Source: a virus
IMG/VR virus record: IMGVR_UViG_3300031772_000276
Coordinates: 1 to 24,256 of that record
DNA length: 24,256 nucleotides
Direction: 5' to 3' (one strand)
Below, piece after piece: positions 4,332 to 24,256 of this stretch (the first letter of the stretch is position 1; each line of letters starts with the position of its first letter). The notes beneath the pieces are model-generated. The model was not told the DNA's origin. It made no database searches and saw only the letters and a program-made list of their open reading frames with translations. A program made the translations under genes and the position numbers.

Positions 4332-4775
4332 TTACTTGGACTTTCTGACGTACGGCTTGTGGCGCGGGACGGTCCCGGTGCCAGTACCGACTGCCTTGCC
4401 GCACACCGGGCAGGGGACGTAGAGGCGGCGGTAGGGGTCGCCAGCGCTCTTGAAGGGCATACCCTGACCCGAGCAGAAGCCCTCGGCAACGGGCTTCTTG
4501 GCTACCGGGCCGTGCTCGCAGCAGGGGAGGACGCGACCGTTGAAGTACGCGAGCACTTCGTCCGGGGTGTTGAAGGTCCGCTCAAACTCCTCAGCGTACT
4601 CGCCAAGGGCGCAGCAGTAGTTCGCGAGGATGCTCTGGGCCAGCGCCGTTTCGGGGGAGTCGCCCTCGACGTCGTAGATCGAGTCTTCGCTGCGTGCGTT
4701 CCTGTGGAGGTCGGCGCAACCGACTGCGTGCAGCTCCCAAGCGCCTGTCCGGGTGATCTTCTCTTGGTACTTCAT
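4332..4775 (-). CDS. Zinc-ribbon protein, 147 aa
   Basis: The gene is read leftward from ATG 4775 with AAGGAGA just upstream as ribosome site. The N-terminal part (KITRTGAWELHAVGCADLHR) and the helix ALAQSILANYCCALGEYAEEF form one region. The C-terminal part has spaced cysteines: CCEHGP, FCSGQGM, then YVPCPVCGKAVG and a basic PRHKPYVRKSK tail. A CxxC plus earlier Cys/His residues suits a zinc ribbon. Similar CPxCG...PxHxP tails are common in small proteins of high-GC phages, with unknown function. It is the second gene of a two-gene minus-strand unit. Confidence 0.7.
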   Translation of the reverse strand: MKYQEKITRTGAWELHAVGCADLHRNARSEDSIYDVEGDSPETALAQSILANYCCALGEYAEEFERTFNTPDEVLAYFNGRVLPCCEHGPVAKKPVAEGFCSGQGMPFKSAGDPYRRLYVPCPVCGKAVGTGTGTVPRHKPYVRKSK

Positions 4776-4800
4776 GGCTGTCTCCTTGGTTGGTGGTGAG

Positions 4801-4845
4801 AGGCCGGGCGAGGAGTCGAACCTCGCGGGAATCCCGTCCCGGCCT
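4801..4845 (-). ncRNA. tRNA-like minihelix (acceptor stem plus T-arm, no D or anticodon arm)
   Basis: Read on the minus strand, a 7-bp acceptor-like stem (GGCCGGG 4844-4838 with CCCGGCC 4808-4802) encloses a 4-bp hairpin with a 3-nt loop (CGGGATTCCCG, 4836-4826) and a 17-nt T-arm: CGAGG, loop TTCGACT, CCTCG (4825-4809). The T-arm joins the acceptor with no spare base, as in tRNA, and GGTTCGACTCC matches the conserved T-arm positions. The D-arm and a normal anticodon arm are absent. It lies in the 73-nt gap between the two minus-strand genes, upstream of the 4775 start. It could be a tRNA remnant, an RNase P-cleavable mRNA element or a transcription attenuator. Confidence 0.6.
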
Positions 4846-4850
4846 GCGTT

Positions 4851-5204
4851 CTACTGGTTGCTGACGATGTCGCAGGCGTACTTGGTGAAGTTGCCGACCT
4901 TGGACGGGTTGCCGTCCTTCTTCAGGGGGGCCAAGTGGCACATCAGCTTGCCGCCCCACGAGTAGCTGTGGCCCATGATCTGTCCGGTGACTTTGCTGCC
5001 CCGGTGCCATACCTCGACGACCTGACCCTTGTCCAGACCGTCGCTTTCGGCTTCGCGGGCCTGCATTTCTGCTTCTGCCCACTCCCGGTCGCTGCGGGTG
5101 ATCTTGAGGAGGGCCGCGTACTTGGACTCGGCGAGGCGCAGGTCGTGGAGGCGATCCTTGAGGCTGTCGAGGGTGAGGATCGAGTATTCGGTCTTGCTGT
5201 CCAT
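4851..5204 (-). CDS. Coiled-coil plus SH3/KOW-like protein, 117 aa
   Basis: The leftward start at ATG 5204 is chosen over an upstream in-frame ATG at 5288 because GAAGAGGA (5216-5209) is well placed and the 28 extra residues look random and overlap the promoter region. The N-terminal half is a long charged helix (LDSLKDRLHDLRLAESKYAA continuing to AEAEMQAREAES), likely a coiled coil. The C-terminal half (KGQVVEVWHRGSKVTGQI, then GGKLMCHLAPLKKDG) looks like a small beta-barrel of SH3/KOW type. Function is unknown; binding to nucleic acid or protein is a guess. First gene of the minus-strand unit. Confidence 0.7.
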   Translation of the reverse strand: MDSKTEYSILTLDSLKDRLHDLRLAESKYAALLKITRSDREWAEAEMQAREAESDGLDKGQVVEVWHRGSKVTGQIMGHSYSWGGKLMCHLAPLKKDGNPSKVGNFTKYACDIVSNQ

Positions 5205-7361: not shown

Positions 7362-7435
7362 AGCGGGGTGGAGCAGTCCGGTAGCTCGCAAGGCTCATAA
7401 CCTTGAGGTCGGTGGTTCAAATCCATCCCCCGCTA
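7362..7435 (+). tRNA. tRNA-Met (CAT), initiator-like
   Basis: Full cloverleaf: acceptor AGCGGGG with CCCCGCT, D-stem GAGC/GCTC, anticodon stem CAAGG/CCTTG with loop CTCATAA (anticodon CAT), T-stem GGTGG/CCATC with loop TTCAAAT, and discriminator A7435. CCA is not encoded. The body (GGGGTGGAGCAG, GGTAGCTCG, GGCTCATAACC, TTCAAATCC) follows bacterial initiator tRNA, including the A11:T24 pair. It departs from the initiator in having an A1:T72 pair instead of a mismatch, and A29:T41 instead of the first of the three G:C pairs. Confidence 0.93.
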
Positions 7436-7436
7436 C

Positions 7437-7509
7437 GCTGGAATAGCTCAGCAGGTAGAGCGGCTGCCTTGTAAGCAGCGGGTCGTGGGTTCGATTCCTA
7501 CTTCCAGCT
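7437..7509 (+). tRNA. tRNA-Thr (TGT)
   Basis: Acceptor GCTGGAA with TTCCAGC, D-stem GCTC/GAGC, anticodon stem GCTGC/GCAGC with loop CTTGTAA (anticodon TGT at 7470-7472), T-stem GTGGG/CCTAC with loop TTCGATT, and discriminator T. CCA is not encoded. It begins one base after the previous tRNA, so the two are surely co-transcribed and separated by processing. Confidence 0.95.
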
Positions 7510-7514
7510 CAGAA

Positions 7515-7543
7515 TGTCGGCACGCTTCGATGATCTGCCGACA
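7515..7543 (+). other. Intergenic hairpin between tRNA-Thr and tRNA-Ala
   Basis: TGTCGGCA (7515-7522) pairs perfectly with TGCCGACA (7536-7543) around a 13-nt loop. The hairpin lies 5 nt after tRNA-Thr and 42 nt before tRNA-Ala. No T-run follows. It may be a processing site or a weak terminator. Confidence 0.5.
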
Positions 7544-7585
7544 CTGTGCGTCAAGCGGTGAATGAATATCATCCACGGCATGAAT

Positions 7586-7658
7586 GGGGATGTAGCTCAG
7601 ATGGGAGAGCGCCTGCCCTGCAAGCAGGATGTCGCGGGTTCGATCCCTGCCATCTCCA
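7586..7658 (+). tRNA. tRNA-Ala (TGC)
   Basis: Acceptor GGGGATG with CATCTCC contains the G3:T70 wobble pair that specifies alanine, and the discriminator is A. The D-stem is GCTC/GAGC, and the anticodon stem is CCTGC/GCAGG. The loop reads CCTGCAA with anticodon TGC at 7619-7621. T-stem GCGGG/CCTGC has loop TTCGATC. Position 33 is C rather than the nearly invariant T. CCA is not encoded. The portal gene starts 28 nt after the tRNA ends. Confidence 0.93.
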
Positions 7659-7686
7659 CAGACGGTTCAACTGAAAGGGAACAGGC

Positions 7687-20680: not shown

Positions 20681-21274
20681 ATGGCCTACTCGACAAGGTT
20701 TGCCGCAAACATCATCACCGCTGCCCGGCGCCTCCACGACAACAGGACCGTTGCCGAGGCGTCCGGCGATGGGGTGCTGCGCTACTCAAGCGATCTCCTG
20801 CGCCAGTACCAGAACACGGCGCAGAAGGACATCGTTCGCGACCTGTACCAGAAGTATGGGGACAAGGTTTCCAGCATCATCCCCGAGATGGTCATCGAGT
20901 CGGGCAACATCACCCTGACCACTGGACTCGGGACTCTGCCCGCTGGCACATGGATCGTGCTTGAGACTTCGTCGAGCGATTGGGCGACCTACTACACGAA
21001 GATCGACGCGAACCCGCTGAAGGTGAGGGCGGGCCGCGACTCCCTGTTGACCCCATCGGCGGGGAAGCCGCTCTTCTACCAGATCGGCCTCACGATTCAG
21101 ATTCTGCCGACGAGCGTTGCTGGCCCGGTTCACACATGGTCACTGACGGTCCCGGTGGACACTGCCGTTGACGCGGCGGGCGAGGTTGCGCTCGCTACCG
21201 TGTGGGATGCTGAGATCGTTCGGCGTATGGTGGACTACGGTCTTCAGGATGCGAAGAGTGCAGTTGCTATTTAA
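20681..21274 (+). CDS. Putative head-tail connector protein (second)
   Basis: ATG 20681 follows the previous stop by one base; the ribosome site is weak. The 197-residue protein has an N-terminal helical part (STRFAANIITAARRLHDNRT, LRYSSDLLRQYQNTAQKDIV, RDLYQKYGDK), a central beta part (NITLTTGLGTLPAGTWIVLE) and a C-terminal helix (AEIVRRMVDYGLQDAKSAVA). This is again a connector-like layout. The large upstream in-frame extension is shadow of the first adaptor. Function is inferred from place and shape. Confidence 0.55.
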   Translation: MAYSTRFAANIITAARRLHDNRTVAEASGDGVLRYSSDLLRQYQNTAQKDIVRDLYQKYGDKVSSIIPEMVIESGNITLTTGLGTLPAGTWIVLETSSSDWATYYTKIDANPLKVRAGRDSLLTPSAGKPLFYQIGLTIQILPTSVAGPVHTWSLTVPVDTAVDAAGEVALATVWDAEIVRRMVDYGLQDAKSAVAI

Positions 21275-21287
21275 GATTCAAGTGGCA

Positions 21288-21328
21288 ACTTTACACAACG
21301 GGGTTTGCTGTTCACAGACTTTACACAA
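21288..21328 (+). repeat. Pair of 11-bp direct repeats, 30 bp apart
   Basis: ACTTTACACAA occurs at 21288-21298 and 21318-21328. The second copy partly overlaps the ribosome site AAGGAG of the next gene. The spacing equals about three helical turns. Each copy contains TTTACA, similar to a -35 box, but no good -10 is seen. Confidence 0.5.
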
Positions 21329-21338
21329 GGAGTAGGCA

Positions 21339-22256
21339 GTGAAAAACTATCTCACCTTCCGCGCCCTCGACTCTGCCCTGCTCCACAAGGCGAGCCTCAA
21401 CGAGAACGACGTCATCCCCGCTCTTCGGATCACAATGATTAACCAGAAGCTGATGAAAATCTATCGGCTTCTCGATGGTCTGAACGATCCGTGGTATCAC
21501 AAACAGGGCTTGGCCGTCACCGTTGCTGGCGACGTCGAGTTCTTGGGCACGGCCTCGATCACGTCCTACACCGCCTCGACGAACACCATCGTCCGCAGCG
21601 CGGGTTCATGGATCAACGGGCAGCTCCTGTCCTGTGTGATTAACAACGGCTCGGGTACACTGGTGGCCAACTTCCTCGGGATCGTCGCCTCCGGCGGGGG
21701 AACGGCAACCGCCGTCCTGACCGTCATCGGGACCGACGCCGACAAGTCCAGCAACACGATGAACGTCACCGTGCTCAAGTCTCCTGCGGCTGCGGTCATC
21801 GACCTCTCCGCCACCTACGTCAAGGACATCCTTCGCGTCTGGGACAACGGGTACACCGGGGGCAAGCCCCGAATCTTCACCCAGATCAAAGACCCGCAGA
21901 TTTTCTCGGTCCTCCACCGCGATCCGTTCTTCGACGGCAGAGTCGCATGGTTCCACCGTGGCGATACCGTCGAGCTGTATATCGGCGCGAGCGCGACGGC
22001 CTTGGCCACCGTCAACTACGAGTACCGTGGCAAGCCCACGCTCTGCGCCGACTTCGACTCGGACGTCGTGATCGACCTGCCCCCGGAGGACAATCAGGTT
22101 CTCATGGACGAGGTGCTCTCCGAGTACCTTCAGGCCGCGAACAAGGAAGTCCCCCCGGACGTCGCAGCACGCACGCTTGAGTTCTCGAAGCGCTACGAGG
22201 TCGCGATGAACGATCTCGCCAAGCAACAGGCCACGAGAGGAGTGCGAGGCGGCTGA
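21339..22256 (+). CDS. Putative virion connector/tail protein, 305 aa
   Basis: GTG 21339 has AAGGAG just upstream. The N-terminus NYLTFRALDSALLHKASLNE and NDVIPALRITMINQKLMKIY is helical, similar in style to the two preceding proteins. A beta-rich central domain follows, Thr/Ser/Gly-rich (AVTVAGDVEFLGTASITSYT, TAVLTVIGTDADKSSNTMNV), and then a C-terminal helical part (DNQVLMDEVLSEYLQAANKE, RTLEFSKRYEVAMNDLAKQQ). The domain may be an Ig-like insertion in an adaptor-type protein. Stop and next start overlap as TGATG. Confidence 0.55.
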   Translation: MKNYLTFRALDSALLHKASLNENDVIPALRITMINQKLMKIYRLLDGLNDPWYHKQGLAVTVAGDVEFLGTASITSYTASTNTIVRSAGSWINGQLLSCVINNGSGTLVANFLGIVASGGGTATAVLTVIGTDADKSSNTMNVTVLKSPAAAVIDLSATYVKDILRVWDNGYTGGKPRIFTQIKDPQIFSVLHRDPFFDGRVAWFHRGDTVELYIGASATALATVNYEYRGKPTLCADFDSDVVIDLPPEDNQVLMDEVLSEYLQAANKEVPPDVAARTLEFSKRYEVAMNDLAKQQATRGVRGG

Positions 22257-24256
22257 TGGCAAACTTTCCGATTAAGCAGTTTCTGGGTCTGCGCCAAACC
22301 GCAGACCCCGAGATCGGGACCGCCCTCAGCGTAAGCAACTTCAAACGGAACGTGACGCGGGGCCGCCTCGAAAACATGGACGGGGCGGCTCTGCTGTCGG
22401 CGCTTCCCTCGCCTGCGGGCAATCTCGGGTACAGCAGCATCGTGTTCAAGAAGCCCTTCTCGTTCTACATCGCGGACGAGACGGGAAAGAATATCTATGC
22501 CGTCGCCGCAACCTACACCAAGGCCCCGCACGGGTACAACGGAACCCCCAACACTACCGCTGGCGTCTGGATCAACCCATACTACGATGGCGGTTGGCAG
22601 ACCGCATGGAGGGAGCTGACGGAATACTACTGCCTCAAGTACGGGAGCAGCGCTGCCAGCGACGACGGGGACGGGGTGACGTGTTATATCCCGCTCGCCA
22701 ACGGCTACGGCAACGATCCGAGCGTTCTCGCCTCCACCGTCACAGAGGGGTGGGTTGTCGTGCGGGACGGCAACCACTCTCTTACGTCCAACACGGGCTT
22801 CAGGGTCCACTCGCTCACCGGGAACACTCTCAGAATCTATGGCCGCGTCTCCGACCTCACCGGGTGGGCGCAGAACACTACGGTGTTCTACGTCTACCGA
22901 AATAACATTGGAGGGGTATTTCCCACCAATATAACCTCTCAGTTCCGTGGCGTCCTCGACGAGGTCCGGGTGAACACCGGGAACGGCGTCTCTGATTTGG
23001 ACGTCGCTCTCTTCTACCGGGACAAGACCTTCTTCCAAGGCGTCACCCTCGCCCGCAAGGGCACCTTCTCGGAGTTCGGACAGCTCCGGGTTCCCTCTCC
23101 CACGTTCAAGCTCAGGAACGCTTCCGTTGTCGGCAGTCAGACCCTCGGGCTTGAGGCTGGCACCTACACACTCCGTCAGTCTATGCTCATGGACGATGGA
23201 CAGGAGACGGAGCTTCGGGATGGACTCGTTGGCGGGTTCCCCGACGCTCTGTCGCTATCCCTCACCAAGAGCGTCACTGGCGTTGCGACGGGTCAGGGGA
23301 TTGCCACCGACGGCACATCCATCTTTGCCGCTGGCGGAGCCGCAGCAACCTATGGATTCAAGGCTCTGGTCAAGATGGACAAGGATACGCTCGAAGTCCT
23401 TGTCTCGACCCCCCTCCCTGTGGATTGGGCCTGCGTCAGTGTCGGCGTCAGCAACGGACTCGTCTACGCCCTGTGCTGGAACACCGTCAACTACCACTGG
23501 CGCCTGTGCTCCTACGATTCTGGCCTTGGGCTTGTGGGCACTGGTGCAGACTTCGATTTTGGCCCGACCAACTATCCCGTGCTGAACGGCGTCTCGTCCA
23601 GCAGGCTCTCGCGCAGCTCGTTCTACTGCGTTGCCTTCAACGGCTCGACTACGTTCTACACGGCGCGGTTCAATCTTCTCTCTCTCACTGGATCGACGTC
23701 CCGCACGTTCACGACAGGCTCGATCTTCCCCATGTGCCTCGGAGAGTCCGTGGAGGGCGACGTCTACTACTCCGACGTCTCAAGCCAAACCCCTGCCCGG
23801 CTCATCCGGCTCAATAATGCCCTGAGCAGCGAGACAACGATGAGCCTCGGCGGAACCTCGGTCCCGGCGGAGGATGGGGTGTTCTACGGCAGCTTCCTGT
23901 ACGTCGGGGCCAACAGCTCGATCTACCGGATTGCCACGGACACCTTCGGTGTGACGCAGTGGAAGTCCGGCATGGCCGCATCTGGCGTGTGGGGAATCAA
24001 GACGAACGGGACAAACCTGTTCTTCAACAAAGCCTACAATACGTTCGTCGTTCGGATGTCGGATGCGGCAACGCTTCTGACCTACTCAGGCTCTGATCTT
24101 CACTATGATCTCGTGATGATCGGACAGAACGTCTACGTCTCCTCGAACACCTATCAGTCCACAATTCTCTTGCTCATGTGGAGTCAAGCCTCCGCATCGT
24201 TTGTCTCCAACGGATACCTGTATCCTCAGTACGATCTGGCAGTCTCTCCGGGGTTC
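22256..24256 (+). CDS. Tail nozzle-like protein (3' partial)
   Basis: The frame from ATG 22256 stays open for 667 codons to the window edge. GAGG (22246-22249) is the ribosome site. The N-terminus IKQFLGLRQTADPEIGTALS, then VSNFKRNVTRGRLENMDG follows the pattern GLxTxxxPxxLxxGxxxxxxNxxxxxGRLRxRxG found in T7 gp12/P22 gp10-type nozzle proteins. The rest is rich in beta-strand repeats with Tyr/Trp/Phe and Gly/Ser (YSSIVFKKPFSFYIADETGK, IYAVAATYTK, GLVYALCWNTVNYHWRLCSY, FLYVGANSSIYRIATDTF), as in a beta-propeller. It comes after the adaptor candidates, where a nozzle gene is expected. Partial; true length is unknown. Confidence 0.6.
   Translation, partial: MANFPIKQFLGLRQTADPEIGTALSVSNFKRNVTRGRLENMDGAALLSALPSPAGNLGYSSIVFKKPFSFYIADETGKNIYAVAATYTKAPHGYNGTPNTTAGVWINPYYDGGWQTAWRELTEYYCLKYGSSAASDDGDGVTCYIPLANGYGNDPSVLASTVTEGWVVVRDGNHSLTSNTGFRVHSLTGNTLRIYGRVSDLTGWAQNTTVFYVYRNNIGGVFPTNITSQFRGVLDEVRVNTGNGVSDLDVALFYRDKTFFQGVTLARKGTFSEFGQLRVPSPTFKLRNASVVGSQTLGLEAGTYTLRQSMLMDDGQETELRDGLVGGFPDALSLSLTKSVTGVATGQGIATDGTSIFAAGGAAATYGFKALVKMDKDTLEVLVSTPLPVDWACVSVGVSNGLVYALCWNTVNYHWRLCSYDSGLGLVGTGADFDFGPTNYPVLNGVSSSRLSRSSFYCVAFNGSTTFYTARFNLLSLTGSTSRTFTTGSIFPMCLGESVEGDVYYSDVSSQTPARLIRLNNALSSETTMSLGGTSVPAEDGVFYGSFLYVGANSSIYRIATDTFGVTQWKSGMAASGVWGIKTNGTNLFFNKAYNTFVVRMSDAATLLTYSGSDLHYDLVMIGQNVYVSSNTYQSTILLLMWSQASASFVSNGYLYPQYDLAVSPGF

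Follow-up and report, generated by a model that had tools for sequence, protein, structure and literature searches.

A small structure that resembles a tRNA reduced to its acceptor stem and T-arm lies between two minus-strand genes of a phage. It occupies positions 4802..4844 of a 24,256-nucleotide stretch of DNA, the IMG/VR virus record IMGVR_UViG_3300031772_000276. This whole stretch is called the window below. Structures of this mini tRNA-like kind form a class that occurs in phage intergenic gaps, and the element is a member of it. It is probably a minimal tRNA mimic that marks an intercistronic RNase P processing site in a polycistronic phage mRNA. It also seems rather likely that many dsDNA phages, above all those of Actinobacteria, use dedicated mini-tRNAs as punctuation in their polycistronic early mRNAs; these would be cut by host RNase P and perhaps by RNase Z.

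On the minus strand, from 4844 to 4802, the element reads GGCCGGG, A, CGGGATTCCCG, CGAGGTTCGACTCCTCG and CCCGGCC. Within these 43 nt, a 7-bp acceptor encloses a 12-nt insert followed by a canonical T-arm. As a preliminary description of this DNA had claimed, the acceptor is perfect: all seven bases of the 5' strand (GGCCGGG, 4838..4844) form Watson-Crick pairs with the 3' strand (CCCGGCC, 4802..4808), and A4845 with T4801 is a possible eighth pair. The T-arm (4809..4825, minus strand) has the stem CGAGG/CCTCG and the loop TTCGACT. It was correctly described as 17 nt long and joined to the acceptor without an extra base, which can be read from the sequence and is also returned by folding. The discriminator position is U73 (4801), followed by C74 (4800); CCA is not encoded. 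The fold had been given as 44 nt, and while the fold itself stands, its length is 43 nt, with 4801 being the discriminator position.

The insert ACGGGATTCCCG (4826..4837, minus strand) takes the position of the D-arm. It consists of the single base A4837 and the 11 nt of CGGGATTCCCG (4836-4826), which can fold as a 4-bp hairpin with a 3-nt loop. This is the tiny hairpin noticed earlier, and the D-arm and anticodon arm are indeed both absent. It had also been suggested that the hairpin is what is left of a class II variable arm. Since the hairpin occupies the D-arm place of a tRNA and the insert of relatives carries a conserved GG, a D-loop mimic is the better reading. The window element has its GG at insert positions 3-4, in line with the class GG in the covariance model R1, described below. 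Whether this GG would dock in the window element is uncertain, because it may be locked in the 4-bp hairpin.

RNA folding returns exactly the acceptor, hairpin and T-arm structure at -26.5 kcal/mol, a value equalled by 2 out of 200 shuffles. If the T-arm is kept fixed and the upstream sequence is shuffled, the fold is reproduced in 0 of 200 trials. Among 1000 dinucleotide-shuffled windows there are 3 occurrences of the full descriptor, which asks for a T-loop TTCRANN, 12 perfect pairs and 4-30 nt of insert.

The two flanking genes form an operon, as read from the ORF list. The upstream gene (4851..5204, minus strand) starts at ATG 5204, which is preceded by GAGG, and stops at TAG 4853-4851. 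Its translation has no match in PHROGs and only a sub-threshold match in Pfam. The downstream gene (4332..4775, minus strand) encodes 147 aa from ATG 4775, with the Shine-Dalgarno sequence AAGGAG at 4782..4787. Its profile search gave only a sub-threshold, zinc-finger-like match in Pfam. The element begins 6 nt past the upstream stop codon (4851) and ends 26 nt before ATG 4775. Its place, between a stop codon and a Shine-Dalgarno sequence or start on the same strand, is that of the class. It is present in a single copy, and there is no array.

IMG/VR contains no relatives of either flanking protein, and the 451-bp region shows no DNA similarity to phages. The nearest contigs by terminase (L002 and L003, 67-71% identity) have no element; L002 carries other genes in the corresponding place, and L003 reaches only about 1.1 kb upstream of the terminase. 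The window also contains three ordinary tRNA genes (Met, Thr and Ala; 7362-7659, plus strand) between its terminase and portal genes. In L002 and L003, ARAGORN calls none.

A blastn search of the 54-nt element against named phages matched 18 Arthrobacter phage records and Gordonia phage Octobien14, mostly in unannotated gaps. The sites that were inspected lack a tRNA but have a T-arm and, upstream of it, a complementary acceptor strand; Octobien14 has three elements with a short insert. Pattern scans of IMG/VR and a descriptor script then yielded 100 distinct perfect mini elements. Each fits the full descriptor given above and lies outside the tRNAs called by ARAGORN. Both the prevalence and the acceptor consensus are biased by the scans, in which the T-loop core and four acceptor pairs were set in advance.

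Members of the class combine a 12-bp stack of acceptor and T-stem with a TTCRANT T-loop and a short insert that has its GG in the right place. The insert can interrupt the stack after 5, 6 or 7 pairs. The consensus begins with G-C-C-C-N-G, followed by the insert A-N-G-G-T-N-G-N-N-N. Next come six pairs ending in GG, the loop TTCGACT, the complementary twelve bases, a discriminator A or G, and C74, which is found in 67 of the 100 members. GGT occurs in 65 of the 100 inserts, where shuffling predicts 26.9, and the first GG is at insert offset 2-3 in 52 out of 67 short inserts.

Support for the pairing that does not depend on selection comes from a permuted-loop control, an upstream-shuffle control and the distribution of helix lengths. 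The permuted-loop control took only matches that the search patterns could not have selected. The loop TTCGA then has 7 matches (174 arms), with about 0.14 expected; the 59 permuted loops have 8 between them (912 arms). In the second control, the T-arm and 3' strand were fixed and the upstream sequence was shuffled. A perfect helix is present in 6 of 6 cases on contig L375 (0.10 expected), 6 of 11 on L370 (0.19), 6 of 9 on L371 (0.07) and 3 of 5 in Octobien14 (0.13). Finally, across 76 arms with unselected helix length, the helix is 12 bp long in 33 (expected 1.2) and 13 bp in 18 (expected 0.3), with 9-11 bp at expectation. The peak at 12 and 13 bp means that the stack length is that of the tRNA acceptor plus T stem, 7+5. 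The 13th pair, N-1:N73, is present in 34 of the 100 elements, which by our own estimate is roughly chance for GC-rich sequence.

The preliminary description had proposed looking for paired substitutions in relatives, and at the level of the class these are found. In an alignment of 28 members from different phages and gaps, 11 of the 12 pairs have changes on both sides. In this alignment 99.7% of cells pair (68.9% if shuffled) and the covariation score is 0.747 (0.145 if shuffled), figures that are inflated because the members were chosen for pairing. There is also an exchange between orthologous gaps, which share the same downstream sequence. The T-stem is TGAGG/CCTCA in Octobien14 and TGGGG/CCCCA in Sephiroth and Syleon, which on the sequences reads as a compensatory A-U to G-C change.

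Covariance model R1 was built from the 28 members, leaving out the window. It finds the window element at 39.1 bits (E 1.7e-5 in 24 kb) and gives one true tRNA of the window 11.7 bits. At E 0.001 or better it has 13 matches in VanLee, 8 in Morgana, 7 each in Aleemily and Indlulamithi, 3 each in Konstantine and Octobien14, 2 in Dagobah, and 1 each in HINdeR, SWU2 and StAB; some of these phages had supplied training sequences for R1. Beyond its reach are the Arthrobacter forms with a long insert and the forms of Sephiroth, Syleon and Kudefre. Among bacterial chromosomes, R1 has matches in 2 of the 296 genomes scanned from one phylum and in none of the 299 from another, and since only the best 21 candidates per genome were scored, absence from chromosomes is weak evidence.

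The hosts of the named carriers are Gordonia (Octobien14, VanLee, Morgana, Aleemily), Mycobacterium smegmatis (Indlulamithi, Konstantine, SWU2, HINdeR), Streptomyces (Dagobah) and Corynebacterium (StAB). The place of the elements is best seen in VanLee. In an annotated minus-strand operon of this phage, exactly one element is present in 16 of the 17 gaps of at least 40 nt, and in 0 of the 14 shorter gaps. In most gaps it starts 2-13 nt past the stop codon and ends 29-51 nt before the next start.

This placement is general. Of the 100 elements, 41 have an upstream stop codon 5-10 nt before them, versus 3.5% of random positions. A start led by a Shine-Dalgarno sequence follows within 50 nt in 58 of the 100, versus 20% in a random control, where gene starts outside annotated records are based on simple rules. 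Four IMG/VR contigs (G018, G022, G026 and G028) contain 6-12 copies of GGTTCGANTCC, and pattern-reversed controls gave zero. All but one of these copies are on the same strand within each contig, and many have a Shine-Dalgarno sequence and a start codon within tens of bases on that strand.

Known Rfam families do not cover the element. It is called neither by ARAGORN nor by Rfam at the gathering threshold, RF00005 included, and without a D-arm and anticodon arm it has no tRNA cloverleaf. At a relaxed threshold the best Rfam match is mascRNA-menRNA (RF01684), with 27.6 bits and E 5e-4; this is below the curated gathering score of 42.5. DUF3800-VI RNA (RF02915) scores 13.1 bits, with a gathering score of 35. 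This family is likewise a short phage and bacterial motif of a stem with an inner hairpin, but it lacks a T-loop. The array contigs L370 and L375 have no Rfam match at the gathering score, and their only match is again mascRNA-menRNA, at 24.3 bits. A megablast of L370, L371 and L375 against named phages gave nothing.

The acceptor and T stems would stack into a 12-bp helix, and the GG of the insert would dock into the T-loop like G18 and G19 of a tRNA D-loop. RNase P stacks on G19-C56 of the elbow. Host RNase P would recognise the elbow, and a cleavage site one acceptor-plus-T-stem length away. The predicted cut is between A4845 (-1) and G4844 (+1), 6 nt past the upstream stop codon. The dicistronic message would be split such that the upstream mRNA ends right after its own stop codon, and the tRNA-like structure forms the 5' end of the downstream mRNA. 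A second cut by RNase Z, behind the discriminator, would leave a downstream mRNA with a short leader and its own Shine-Dalgarno sequence. The likely benefit is that, in GC-rich operons, the mRNA of every gene or gene group would have a stability and translation of its own. The structure, the class, its intergenic place, the 12-bp length and the covariation are shown by the sequences; docking of the GG, both cuts and the benefit are inferred.

Parts of this are known biochemistry. RNase P cleaves acceptor/T-arm hairpins efficiently and at the correct site (PMC11143913). The elbow of tRNA, which RNase P and RNase Z read, arises when two guanines of the D-loop lock into the T-loop (PMC4810234), and mascRNA likewise relies on two D-loop guanines and its T-loop for both enzymes (PMC11693755). 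Because the elements encode no CCA and favour C74 alone, the primary transcript would offer RNase P a weak RCCA contact. The preliminary description had offered three readings of the element. Its mRNA-processing signal is the best supported of these, because the class sits between stop codon and Shine-Dalgarno sequence, keeps the 12-bp stack and resembles RNase P model substrates. Its tRNA remnant is not supported, as discussed below. Counting against processing are the single copy in the window phage and the lack of an element in its two nearest relatives. Also, a 12-bp helix 6-9 nt past a stop codon could act on terminating or re-initiating ribosomes.

This last point leads to the main rival, in which the fold is not cut. 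Past the stop codon it would block ribosome drift or re-initiation, or bind a translation factor. Very stable stems at a fixed place, 5-10 nt past stop codons and before a Shine-Dalgarno sequence, are what such an insulator would look like, and VanLee has the element only in real gaps and never where genes overlap or nearly abut. Any stable hairpin would serve this purpose, however, which leaves the conserved T-loop, the GG insert and the exact 12-bp length unexplained. An insulating role is considered unlikely. The other explanations are weaker still. That the elements are decoys or sponges for tRNA enzymes, or for defence systems that cut tRNA, is quite improbable. Minihelices of acceptor and T-arm are substrates of several tRNA enzymes (PMC4810234 cites a TruB-minihelix cocrystal), and there are multiple copies per genome. 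But a decoy would not need to be at operon joints, in register with stop and start codons, and with no anticodon arm it would be no decoy for anticodon nucleases.

Even less probable is that the element derives from the 3' half of a tRNA, as a remnant or an integration (att) site. The T-arm and the acceptor 3' strand are what attP cores that target tRNAs contain, and phage tRNAs are 2.5 kb away. The 5' acceptor strand, however, is present and perfectly paired, the D-arm and anticodon arm are missing, and among the 395 loci compared the exact 3' half occurs only here. In addition, around a hundred distinct copies with unrelated stems, often many per genome and at times in arrays like that of VanLee, contradict this origin. 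Nor is there an integrase among the PHROGs and Pfam matches of the ORFs tested. An attP core from a tRNA gene, or a tRNA remnant, was rejected on the fully paired 5' acceptor and the absence of the 3' half from the other loci compared. Equally remote is an intrinsic terminator or attenuator. A GC-rich stem between genes would suit one, but a conserved T-loop is not expected there. A terminator was rejected as the site lacks a U-tract and matches no terminator-like pattern.

tRNA mimicry, RNase P model substrates and tRNA punctuation are all already known. One of the systems closest to the phage class is mascRNA/menRNA, found at the ends of vertebrate MALAT1 and MEN-beta. It too is a tRNA mimic within a longer transcript, with an acceptor, a T-arm and a reduced D-arm with two guanines. 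In mascRNA/menRNA these guanines form the elbow, and both RNase P and RNase Z cut (PMC11693755), where in the phage class docking and cleavage would be analogous. It differs in being part of a vertebrate lncRNA, with one copy at the 3' end, an anticodon-stem-like hairpin and a length of about 56-60 nt. The phage elements are about 40-45 nt, lack the anticodon-stem-like arm, and are repeated between protein genes.

The artificial RNase P substrates AT1 and pMini3bp consist of an acceptor stem, T-stem and T-loop, the same paired parts, and are cut at the canonical site (PMC11143913). They were designed in vitro without a D-loop-like insert, whereas the phage elements are natural and have a GG insert. 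Plant viruses also mimic tRNA, and according to PMC7881203 their 3' tRNA-like structures can be cut by RNase P. Unlike the phage class, these are at the 3' end of RNA genomes, are often aminoacylated and have pseudoknotted acceptors.

The marks that punctuate the phage mRNAs would be mini mimics without an anticodon, in dsDNA phages. The marks in mitochondrial punctuation are working tRNAs. There, polycistronic RNAs are cut into mRNAs at the tRNA folds that lie between the genes. As far as could be found, minimal tRNA mimics that recur as gap elements in dsDNA phages are undescribed; the literature search, which found no description of such phage elements, had partial full-text coverage, with most subscription journals and bioRxiv outside it.

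If the processing reading is true, this is a phage version of mitochondrial tRNA punctuation, made of natural minimal RNase P substrates that went unnoticed in long-public genomes. Phages would have a way of dividing their polycistronic mRNAs into units, at fixed places and by means of a host enzyme. The elements would also be a natural set of minimal substrates for testing the rules of RNase P (12-bp length, elbow, CCA) in vivo. Several carriers are M. smegmatis phages, which makes this testable in an ordinary laboratory. Blank stretches of phage annotation would become readable; in the VanLee operon, nearly every real gap would be explained by one element.

Some further observations concern individual genomes. 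In VanLee (L384, NC_073474.1, 71.5-82 kb) many elements are followed by a small hairpin and then by a conserved leader motif, CACGGCACCCAAC, before the Shine-Dalgarno sequence. Morgana has this leader motif as well. VanLee also has a gene for a Ro-like RNA-binding protein (20752-22368). Ro proteins bind Y RNAs, some of which have tRNA-like domains; a link to the mini elements is conceivable. One VanLee mini element (35227-35269, minus strand) is called tRNA-Val by ARAGORN, and some reported phage tRNAs may be such mini elements.

In Arthrobacter phages of the Azeevirinae type, the element is directly before the DNA polymerase I gene. At this place, the phages L007-L009 and L011-L020 have a T-arm and acceptor with variable inserts, which in one subset are 84-85 nt long. 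This long insert contains a further helix with a compensatory change, CGCGCTC/GAGCGCG in Crewmate and CTCGCTC/GAGCGAG in Amyev.

The element GGCCTT..TTCGANT..AAGGCC recurs in two Paenibacillus genomes (L314 and L359) and in the IMG/VR contigs L095 and L104. Because it is found in Paenibacillus, the design is not limited to Actinobacteria. To judge by their sequences, the genes nearby may encode an ArpU-type regulator and a tyrosine recombinase. An actinobacterial chromosome (L389, G162) has a consensus copy close to a gene with a RRQLRAEGLRPGG motif, perhaps within an integrative element. Finally, L005 (6100-6204) and L006 share the same intergenic stretch of about 105 nt, which has a 7-bp acceptor-like stem, the T-arm GGGGTTCGATTCCCC and a large, unusual middle.
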